In this document: one piece after another, positions 27,364 to 32,125 of the stretch
Numbering within the stretch: the first letter of the stretch is position 1
Layout of the letters: every line of letters begins with the position of its first letter
Assembly (NCBI GenBank): GCA_016873115.1
Contig: VGYB01000027.1
Span: forward strand, 1-32,171
From: Planctomycetota bacterium
GTDB lineage: Bacteria; Planctomycetota; Phycisphaerae; Phycisphaerales; SM1A02
DNA: 32,171 nt
Direction of reading: 5' to 3'
Notes under the pieces: model-generated
What the model saw: the letters and a program-made list of their open reading frames with translations, nothing else
Databases searched by the model: none
What the model was told of the DNA's origin: nothing
Translations under genes and position numbers: made by a program

Positions 27364-28020
27364 GTGCTGATCCATCTGGCGAATCTCCTGCTCCTGGGGT
27401 GCTACCTCGTGCGCGACATCCTGCTGCTGCGGGTGGCGGCGGTCGTGGCGAGCGGGTGCTTCATCGCCTACTTCATGATGCTCGATGCGCCCAACTGGGA
27501 AGCCGCGTCATGGAATGTGGTCTATGTCGTGGTCAATGCGGTGCAGATCGCGTTGCTCGTGCGCGAGCGCGTGCGTGGCCAGCTCACGCCGACCGAAGCC
27601 GCGCTCCGTGAGCGGATCTTCCCCTGGATGCCTGCACACAAGTTCGCGACCCTCGTCCGGCTGGCGGTGCTCGCTCGCGTGGAGCCCGGGGACCCGGCGC
27701 TCGTCGAGCGCGGTCAGGCGGTGGAAGCGTTGTGGCTGGTCCAGGATGGTGAGCTCGAGGTCGTCGTGGATGGCCGATGCGTCGCCACATGCATCCCCGG
27801 TGACTTCGTGGGCGAGATGGCATTCATCGACCGTGTCGCTGCTTCGGCCACGGTGCGCGCGCGCGTGCCAAGCACGCTCTTGGTCTGGGACGCACGGCGC
27901 CTGGACGGGATGCTCGCTGACGAACCCGAGATCCAGCGCGGCTTCCACGCGGCGCTGGGCACCAACATGTCGCAGAAGCTTCGCCGCAAGGCGATGCAGG
28001 TCGTCAGCGGCACGGTCTGA
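27364..28020 (+). CDS. Bacterial Popeye-domain protein with cNMP-binding-like domain
   Basis: Popeye (POPDC/BVES) proteins are three-pass membrane proteins with a cytoplasmic cyclic-nucleotide-binding-fold domain, best known from animal muscle, where they bind cAMP. This 218-residue protein has the same layout. Three membrane segments lie at about 2-20 (LIHLANLLLLGCYLVRDILL), 23-41 and 49-66 (WNVVYVVVNAVQIALLVRE). The linker LTPTEAALRERIFPWMPAHK precedes a cNMP-binding fold at about 100-205. The phosphate-cassette region is GEMAFIDRVAASATV (150-164), with Ala160 where PKA and CAP have Arg. It also lacks the animal DSPE motif. The start is GTG at 27364, 11 bp after the MFS stop. Bacterial function unknown. 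Confidence 0.82.
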   Translation: MLIHLANLLLLGCYLVRDILLLRVAAVVASGCFIAYFMMLDAPNWEAASWNVVYVVVNAVQIALLVRERVRGQLTPTEAALRERIFPWMPAHKFATLVRLAVLARVEPGDPALVERGQAVEALWLVQDGELEVVVDGRCVATCIPGDFVGEMAFIDRVAASATVRARVPSTLLVWDARRLDGMLADEPEIQRGFHAALGTNMSQKLRRKAMQVVSGTV

Positions 28021-30005: not shown

Positions 30006-31049
30006 TCAGGGGGGGCATAGACCCCATGCGACCAGCATGATGCCCAGGTCGGCACCACCGACGAAGCCATCACCATCAAGGTCCGCCGCCGAGTTCGTGG
30101 TGCCCCACGCCGTCAGCAGGATGCCAAGATCACTGCCGCCGACCGCGCCATCGCGATCCAGGTCGGACGGGCACGCAGGAGCCGCATCACCCAGCTCGAC
30201 CACACCAATCTGCTGGCCGTTGCCGTCGGCATCCTGGTCGTTCCACTTCCCATTCGACCCAAGAAGTTCCGTGAAGTCCTCGACACCGCCACTGTTGTTG
30301 GGCTCCCCCTGATTCCAATTCGTGTAACCGGTCGATGTACCGTCGGTCCAGACGAATTGGCCCTCGACCTGGACATCGTTGAAGCCGATCCAGAGGCGCC
30401 GGTCCACGCCACCGAAGTTGGCGACATTGGCGCGGACCCATTCGTTCTCCGCTGCATCGTCGATCGAGACGAGGTGCCCACCCAGTTGGACGGCCGTGGC
30501 CTCGGCCGCTGCCCATGTGGTCGCTGAGTACGCCACATAGCGCTTGCCGGTCTCGGGGCGCGTGACCTCGAAGAGTGCGCCGTTGGTGACCATCAGCGTG
30601 CCAGAACCGCTGGCCGCGCCGGCTTCGCTTGCGCCGTAGCCGCCGAGGCGGACCAGGTACTGCTGGCCTGCAGTTGCCGCGATCGTCACGCGTGACTGTG
30701 TGCCGCAGGTGTCATCGCTGCAGGCCAGGATCGAGGTCCCGGTGGCGGCGCAGTCACAGCCTGCATAGACGGCGAGCTTGGTGTCCCAGGTCGCGCCCCC
30801 GCAGGTCGCGAAGGCGACCAAGCCTGACGCGGATGGGGTCCAGCAGAACCAGACATCCTTCCAGACCTGTGCTTGGCCGAAGAAGTTGCACGGGGCATTG
30901 ATCGGTCCGTCCGTCGTGGCATCGACGGTGGAGAACGCGAACGAGCCGAGGTCCGCGATCGGCTCTGCGCTTGTGCACGCGTCGTTGGCCGGCGGAAGAG
31001 CCACGGCCGAGGCTGCAAGCGCGTGGACGATGAGGGCTATGGCGTGCAT
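30006..31049 (-). CDS. Secreted C-type lectin-domain protein with dockerin-like tail
   Basis: Predicted extracellular carbohydrate- or protein-binding protein. The 347-residue product has a signal peptide (MHAIALIVHALAASAVAL) and then PPANDACTSAEPI, a common opening of planctomycete secreted beta-sandwich domains, covering about 20-175 with CGTQSRVTIAATAGQQYLVR near the end. A C-type lectin domain at about 180-300 shows TTWAAAEATAVQLGGHLVSI, LWIGFNDVQVEGQFVWTDG, the EPN Ca2+/sugar motif (about 249) and WND. Two EF-hand-like dockerin repeats end the protein: DLDRDGAVGGSDLGILLTAW and DLDGDGFVGGADLGIMLVAW. AGGAG lies before the ATG at 31049, which is preferred to longer frames. It is first in a likely operon with the binding protein and CxxCxGxG protein. 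Confidence 0.88.
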   Translation of the reverse strand: MHAIALIVHALAASAVALPPANDACTSAEPIADLGSFAFSTVDATTDGPINAPCNFFGQAQVWKDVWFCWTPSASGLVAFATCGGATWDTKLAVYAGCDCAATGTSILACSDDTCGTQSRVTIAATAGQQYLVRLGGYGASEAGAASGSGTLMVTNGALFEVTRPETGKRYVAYSATTWAAAEATAVQLGGHLVSIDDAAENEWVRANVANFGGVDRRLWIGFNDVQVEGQFVWTDGTSTGYTNWNQGEPNNSGGVEDFTELLGSNGKWNDQDADGNGQQIGVVELGDAAPACPSDLDRDGAVGGSDLGILLTAWGTTNSAADLDGDGFVGGADLGIMLVAWGLCPP

Positions 31050-31177
31050 GATGGCTCCTGGTTGGAGGATTGTGACCCCAGGCCGGCGTTGGTCCAAGAA
31101 CAAGGGCGTCGATTTCCATCGCGCTCCGCCCGTGATAACGCGTGGCACGATCGGCCGTCGTTGGTTACGGTGCACCT
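31050..31177. promoter_or_regulatory. Divergent intergenic region between the lectin operon and the PAP2-like lipoprotein
   Basis: This 128-bp gap should contain promoters for both divergent units. The ribosome binding site of the lectin gene is visible at its left end. No convincing promoter boxes or operators were identified. Confidence 0.3.
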
Positions 31178-32125
31178 ATGCACTCGATCCTCCTCGCGAT
31201 CCTGGTCGGTGCGGCCGCAGGCTGTCAGGCACCCGCTCCAGCGGCACGGCAGGCGGCGGTCCCGGCCACCCCGCAACCACCGGCCCGCGAAGCGGCGCCC
31301 CAGCCCGGACCTCCCACCGAAGCCACGGGGGATGCGGCGAAGGAACCCGCGAAGGAGGCACTTCGCGAACCTGCGAAGCCCAAGCAGTCAGAGTGCAAGT
31401 TCCTCTGTCCTGAATCCGTCGACCTCACTGCGCTCGTGGAGGAGCCGCCCAAGCCAGCATCGGCTGAGCACGCGAAGGATGAGGCCATCCTGCTCTGGCT
31501 TCAGGACCGCCGCACGAGCGAGGACGAATCGCGCGCATGGCGCAGCCTCAGCTTCGACCTCACCTGGTTCGACGAAGCGCTCGATGTACGGCTCGACAGC
31601 ACGTGGTATCCGGCGCTCTTCAAGACCTTCAACGAGATCCGCAATGACGTGAGCCTGCTGCTCTTGGATCTGCCCGAGTCCTTCAAGCGCGATCGTCCTC
31701 ACACGAACCCTGCCATCCTGCCATGCCTTCCCCGCGAGGATGCGATCACCGTCAGCGGCAAGGTCACGCTTGCCAACGGCTATCCCAGCGGGCCGGCCTT
31801 GCGTGCCACCGTCTTCGCGGTGCTCCTGGCGAATCTGGTCGAGGACCGCAAGGATGCGCTCATGGAGCGGGCCCGGGAGGTCGGCTTTGCGCGCACCCTC
31901 GGCGGCGTGAACTATCCCTCCGATGTCCGCGCCGCCGAGCAGCTTGGCACGGCACTTGCGCGGCAGATCATCGCGGGGGATGCGTGGGGGAAGCGGAGGG
32001 TCGAACTGCAGGATGAGCTCGTGACCATGGCGCAGCAGCGTGAACGGCAGCCCAAGCCCGTCGAGCCGGATCCCGCGACGGATGCGGCCAAGCCGCGTGA
32101 GCCTGCAAGCGCGAACCCCAAGTGA
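31178..32125 (+). CDS. Lipoprotein with degenerate PAP2 acid-phosphatase fold (catalytic residues replaced)
   Basis: PAP2/class A acid phosphatases hydrolyse phosphate esters through a His nucleophile. This 315-residue lipoprotein has a lipobox ending AAGC (Cys16), an Ala/Pro-rich linker to about residue 75, and a PAP2-like domain at about 95-270. The three active-site motifs are present but altered. The KxxxxxxRP region reads FKRDRP (Arg173-Pro174 kept, no Lys seven before Arg). PSGH reads YPSGPALRAT with Pro206 for His. SRxxxxxHxxxD reads ARTLGGVNYPSD with Asn245 for the nucleophile His and Arg239 and Asp249 kept. A charged Pro/Lys/Glu tail follows. It is probably a catalytically dead binding protein. 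The ATG at 31178 starts the signal peptide; the frame upstream adds 12 unlikely residues. Confidence 0.75.
   Translation: MHSILLAILVGAAAGCQAPAPAARQAAVPATPQPPAREAAPQPGPPTEATGDAAKEPAKEALREPAKPKQSECKFLCPESVDLTALVEEPPKPASAEHAKDEAILLWLQDRRTSEDESRAWRSLSFDLTWFDEALDVRLDSTWYPALFKTFNEIRNDVSLLLLDLPESFKRDRPHTNPAILPCLPREDAITVSGKVTLANGYPSGPALRATVFAVLLANLVEDRKDALMERAREVGFARTLGGVNYPSDVRAAEQLGTALARQIIAGDAWGKRRVELQDELVTMAQQRERQPKPVEPDPATDAAKPREPASANPK

Follow-up and report, generated by a model that had tools for sequence, protein, structure and literature searches.

The question raised by this locus is what a protein does when it carries the domain of a phosphatase but has lost the residues of phosphatase catalysis: whether it is on its way to becoming a pseudogene, whether it remains an enzyme by other means or whether it is kept for something other than catalysis. 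The gene lies at one end of the window, by which we mean the whole stretch of DNA analyzed here, 32,171 nucleotides long; the window is also the whole contig, which ends 46 bases past the gene. The reading we favor, at a probability of about one half, is that selection has maintained this pseudo-phosphatase from the genus ancestor onwards for a function other than catalysis, most likely the capture of a phosphate-bearing ligand that it does not cleave.

Fold and active-site residues

First of all, the domain belongs to the PAP2 superfamily, scoring 28.5 bits against PF01569 (gathering cut-off 27.2), and its top sequence match in the PDB is an acid phosphatase (7f18, E 5.2e-11). A structure predicted from a seven-sequence alignment (mean pLDDT 87.7, pTM 0.88) finds class A phosphatases with Foldseek (1iw8, E 3.2e-8, TM 0.77/0.80). 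In the VIA-align comparison, which covers Foldseek's own candidates only, the predicted model matches PhoN (2a96) at Z 22.4 over 210 aligned residues with an rmsd of 2.5; class A phosphatases make up the best 13 rows (Z 21.4–22.4, 206–215 residues aligned, rmsd 2.4–2.8), and membrane PAP2 proteins and haloperoxidases rank below them (Z ≤ 14.1). A class A acid phosphatase fold is predicted across the whole domain, like that of the non-specific enzymes PhoN and PhoC and those of E. blattae and Pseudomonas (PDB 2a96, 9qcj, 1d2t, 7f17).

Second, the active site departs from that of these enzymes. The class A motif is given as KX6RP-(X12-54)-PSGH-(X31-54)-SRX5HX3D (PMC12356135). The spacings fit, but the full motif is not found in the window protein, from which the Lys and both His are absent. 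RP, PSG (including G205) and the Arg and Asp of the third motif are common to the class A phosphatases and the window protein, whereas the window protein has other residues in place of the Lys, of both His and of a Gly that does not vary among relatives. It is further set apart by long linkers, a probable lipid anchor and an insertion between motifs 1 and 2, which is modeled with low confidence. The third motif reads AR-TLGGV-N-YPS-D, with Ala at the position of the Ser before the Arg, a Ser that is likewise missing from most intact relatives.

An alignment of 22 relatives places these replacements at the catalytic columns: K166, H206 and H245 are present in all 15 rows from other genera (outside rows hereafter) and in none of the seven genus rows. 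The genus keeps nine of the 14 columns that are invariant in the outside rows and has lost four, namely K166, H206, H245 and G253, the last now Ala; the remaining column, S204, is mixed, with Cys in five of the seven genus species and Ser in two. K170 was considered as the motif-1 Lys and rejected, as it does not stand seven positions before R173 (KX6RP) and in both alignments the Lys column is taken up by P166. A displaced catalytic His was also sought; the only His residues of the window protein, H2, H98 and H175, all lie outside the catalytic columns. The original prediction had described a PAP2 scaffold keeping RP, PSG, R239 and D249, both catalytic His replaced (by P206 and N245), the first-motif Lys absent and an intact reading frame, and the profile score, predicted structure, alignment and open 315-residue frame agree with it on each of these counts.

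These data also bear on whether the protein could still be an enzyme that works through migrated residues, for example H175 beside the RP pair, or C204. Migrated residues in pseudoenzymes are mentioned in PMC10211241, and H175 is largely a feature of the genus (Table 1). Residue 204, on the other hand, is still Ser in two of the seven species, and the Lys, nucleophile and motif-2 His are all gone at once through P166, N245 and P206, making such a rebuilt active site improbable.

The protein is probably a lipoprotein and lipid-anchored, judging from its N-terminal sequence, in which a lipobox-like motif precedes a long, fast-evolving linker; against this, the n-region contains neither Lys nor Arg when counted from the start at 31178.

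Table 1. Coordinates of the pseudo-phosphatase gene, its residues of interest and adjoining features in the window
Feature	Position	Strand	Remarks
Pseudo-phosphatase coding sequence	31178..32125	+	315 aa plus stop; uninterrupted ORF
Probable signal peptide, lipobox-like AAGC, C16 as would-be lipidated Cys	31178..31225	+	C16 in 7/7 covering genus rows
Linker rich in Pro/Ala/Glu/Lys, residues 17-77, fast evolving	31226..31408	+	14/61 positions invariant (six full-length genus rows)
P166, at the motif-1 Lys column	31673..31675	+	Alignments
R173-P174, motif-1 RP kept	31694..31699	+	Alignment
H175	31700..31702	+	Alignment; His in 8/8 genus rows, 1/15 outside rows
Insertion (residues about 187-200) separating motifs 1 and 2	31736..31777	+	Genus rows only, against 15 outside rows
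PSGP 203-206, motif-2 His replaced by Pro (P206)	31784..31795	+	Alignments
R239, motif-3 Arg kept	31892..31894	+	Alignment
N245, at the third-motif (nucleophile) His	31910..31912	+	Alignments
D249, motif-3 Asp kept	31922..31924	+	Alignment
Divergent neighbor, C-type lectin domain and below-cut-off dockerin match	30006..31046	-	Beside the gene in 8/8 genomes having it
Leader just 5' of the start codon, conserved DNA	31140..31177	+	27/38 columns invariant (eight sequences), against 4 of the preceding 40

Spread, origin and selection

A profile search finds the gene in eight of the nine genomes of the genus. The exception is G001 (74 % complete), whose contig breaks off within the ortholog of the NMT1-like neighbor, which starts at contig base 3 without its first residues; for the intervening lectin gene, no closer match than one of 39 % identity turns up. 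The absence of the pseudo-phosphatase there is therefore probably an assembly gap. P206 and N245 are fixed in all seven readable species and P166 in all eight; the copy in G006 runs off the end of its contig and thus stands outside the P206/N245 count, and a 43-residue C-terminal fragment at a contig start (G002:C55) was left out.

Beyond the genus, family-wide matches at E ≤ 1e-4 occur in 13 of 181 genomes, that is, the eight of the genus and five others (G010 and G145, and as local matches G070, G079 and G122), all five of which keep both His. The intact relatives in G145 and G010 share the same domain at 34 and 25 % identity, respectively, and, unlike the window protein, retain the Lys, PSGH and the third-motif His; their gene neighbors, judged from the ORFs, differ. 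Of the 51 distinct PAP2 segments inspected outside the genus, 49 have both His; 15 of the 51 are the aligned outside rows, and many belong to the PAP2 superfamily at large and are not close class A relatives. Out of larger groups, 400 genomes were sampled in the order search and 392 in the phylum search, and 30 of the 70 listed phylum matches were taken as loci (one being the window itself), with the other 40 outside the count. The two exceptions among the 51 (L069 and L078) come from planctomycete tandem proteins. Each has two PAP2 matches (frame residues 80-263 and 387-506 in L069, 265-437 and 501-681 in L078), of which the first, the segment counted here, is degenerate where PSGH and the Arg should stand, and the second is intact. 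Weak matches were dropped in two sets, L002, L012 and L017 once their ORFs were listed, and L003, L013 and L014, which cover only the signal, linker and first domain residues (query residues 4-100).

On the tree, all six full-length copies from the genus fall into a single clade (support 100/99), and the nearest rows, L027 from G145 and then L054 from G010, are intact, although several branches are long and some joins, including that of L027 with the genus, may be false. On this tree, the pseudo-phosphatase thus has a single origin, with the residue changes all on the stem branch of the genus. The active-site changes had been taken for three independent ones, and this independence is not borne out by their shared branch.

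The gene is kept under purifying selection. Whole-gene dN/dS is 0.093–0.324 in all 15 pairs of the six full-length copies, and for residues 201–262, which span motifs 2 and 3, it falls to 0.011–0.131 across the 15 pairs; this is also the most conserved segment, with 52 of 62 positions invariant. Only CCG and CCA encode P206, only CCC and CCG encode P166, and the N245 codon is invariant. Since every readable member of the genus shares the changes, the window gene is not a single decayed copy. Recent decay towards a pseudogene might be suspected from G008, where a frameshift, which could be an assembly error, splits the gene, but the low dN/dS, the lack of internal stops in any of the six full-length copies and the identical replacements in seven species leave this explanation barely credible. 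Orthologs keeping PSGH had been named as the finding that would mark the gene as a single decayed copy; other-genus relatives (G145, G010) do keep both His, yet the changes are genus-wide and the conclusion of decay does not follow. The proposal of selection for a role outside phosphatase activity, as opposed to decay, for which conservation of P206 and N245 in orthologs and a search for an active paralog had been suggested as checks, is supported by the genus-wide fixation, the purifying selection, the constant position beside the same divergent gene and the finding of no intact class A paralog in the window's genome. The other PF01569 match in that genome at E ≤ 0.01, the only one, is a membrane-type PAP2 protein (L019, G000:C6:52275-52493) with PSMH and HHVADI motifs, its His residues present.

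Neighboring genes and the upstream leader

Behind the divergent lectin gene lie an NMT1-like binding protein and then a protein that matches the DnaJ cysteine-rich domain below cut-off. Further along the window, positions 27364-28020 are syntenic with a bacterial Popeye-like protein at L051:2120-2773, which scores above the cut-offs of two domains, Popeye (POPDC1-3) and cyclic-nucleotide-binding.

Downstream, in five loci (L048 to L052), the start of a glycosyltransferase gene (6966-7976 in L048, and its counterparts) overlaps the pseudo-phosphatase stop by 4 nt. This arrangement, together with a top NCBIfam match of the transferase to an ArnC-type model, which at 126.5 bits falls far short of the 529-bit cut-off, would suit a regulator of polyprenyl-phosphate glycan assembly coupled to the overlapping enzyme. 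However, the transferase is found in six of the nine genomes only; it is not in G000, G001 or G002 and is thus not an obligate partner, and G000 and G002 retain the pseudo-phosphatase (G002 is 81 % complete, and its locus L047 has no transferase gene after the pseudo-phosphatase). A Wzz-like gene, so called from a resemblance seen by eye and without a family match in the two copies scanned, follows downstream in L047, L048, L049 and L052 but is not called in L050 or L051. Taken with these absences, a role in glycan assembly is very improbable.

The DNA just upstream of the start codon is itself conserved. An alternative start within it, at 31142, was considered and rejected, as G007 has GTA there and the start is not universal; because this start is not conserved, the leader has the look of an element working at the DNA or RNA level. 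An exact copy of its core occurs once in the genome, and a regulon sharing the core was rejected, with 17 matches at up to three mismatches against 24 for a reversed-pattern control. By consensus, no sigma-70-like promoter or terminator was found in 30950-31250, and no Rfam family reached its gathering score anywhere in the window.

Possible roles of the altered pocket

The protein would count as a pseudoenzyme, with its fold kept (as predicted), its catalytic residues lost and its gene under purifying selection. For the soluble PAP2 enzymes, PMC7413402 describes attack on the phosphate by the third-motif His and protonation of the leaving group by the motif-2 His, whereas PMC12356135 assigns the two roles in reverse. 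With Asn at position 245, the phospho-histidine intermediate could no longer form, making phosphatase activity by that route very unlikely, and with Pro at position 206 the motif-2 His would be unavailable. In PgpB, as reported in PMC7413402, H207A has no detectable activity, whereas H163A retains 27 % on C55-PP, so N245 is the more telling of the two changes.

The same source reports that PgpB H207A in phosphate buffer has a Tm 17.1 °C over that of the wild type, and its authors attribute the hold on phosphate to R104, S161 and R201. By motif position, these residues would correspond to R173, S/C204 and R239 here. Because of this stabilization by phosphate and the corresponding residues, capture of a phospho-ligand appears the likeliest role: R173, S/C204-G205 and R239 may still grip phosphate in the pocket, such that the ligand would be caught and not cleaved, by a class A domain held on a probable lipid anchor and a flexible linker. 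We infer catalytic inactivity, ligand binding and an envelope location. Sensing of phosphate or a phospho-ligand at the outer membrane, offered at first as an example of the non-enzymatic role, is a candidate too. The likeness to PgpB H207A lies in the loss of the nucleophile His with the phosphate-gripping residues kept; the PgpB variant differs, by the same account, in being engineered and membrane-embedded, with Ala and not Asn in place of the His, and in keeping its motif-2 His. The loss of the Lys, Cys in place of S204 in five of the seven species and a possible distortion of the loop by P206 all argue against tight phosphate binding, such that affinity for phosphate may have gone as well, and the retained Arg and Gly may be structural.

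A scaffold ranks close behind phospho-ligand capture, although we regard it as the less likely of the two: a module for protein-protein interaction or assembly in the envelope, in whose function the old pocket plays no part. Roles as scaffolds or regulators are described for pseudoenzymes (PMC11266112), and PRG5, a vertebrate relative said to be inactive, multimerizes (PMC11471602); the gene, furthermore, adjoins the same divergent lectin gene in all eight genomes that have it. Residues 201–262, being the most conserved and having the lowest dN/dS, suggest instead that the pocket region matters, though this segment also forms part of the core of the fold. A bolder and rather doubtful version of phospho-ligand capture is that the genus turned a secreted phosphatase into a lipid-anchored trap for phosphate or a phospho-ligand through a natural counterpart of the PgpB nucleophile mutation, the pocket being reshaped to suit a specific ligand by H175, invariant in the genus, and by the new insertion.

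PRG/PLPPR and PLPP7/NET39 are eukaryotic membrane proteins, unlike the window protein. They are the PAP2 relatives, described in vertebrates, that are said to have functions despite lost activity. Vertebrate PRGs are reported to be inactive through changed catalytic residues (PMC11471602), as is PLPP7/NET39 (PMC7564803), but the latter source counts PLPPRs among proteins with conserved catalytic domains, and the two sources thus differ on PLPPRs. No bacterial class A pseudo-phosphatase appeared among the matches listed from the literature searched, which covered few subscription papers.

With intact nearest relatives, a single point of change and copies in seven species, the step from enzyme to non-enzyme is directly testable in this family. 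If the trap reading is true, the genus would possess a phosphate-capturing receptor unrelated to the PstS-type binding proteins.
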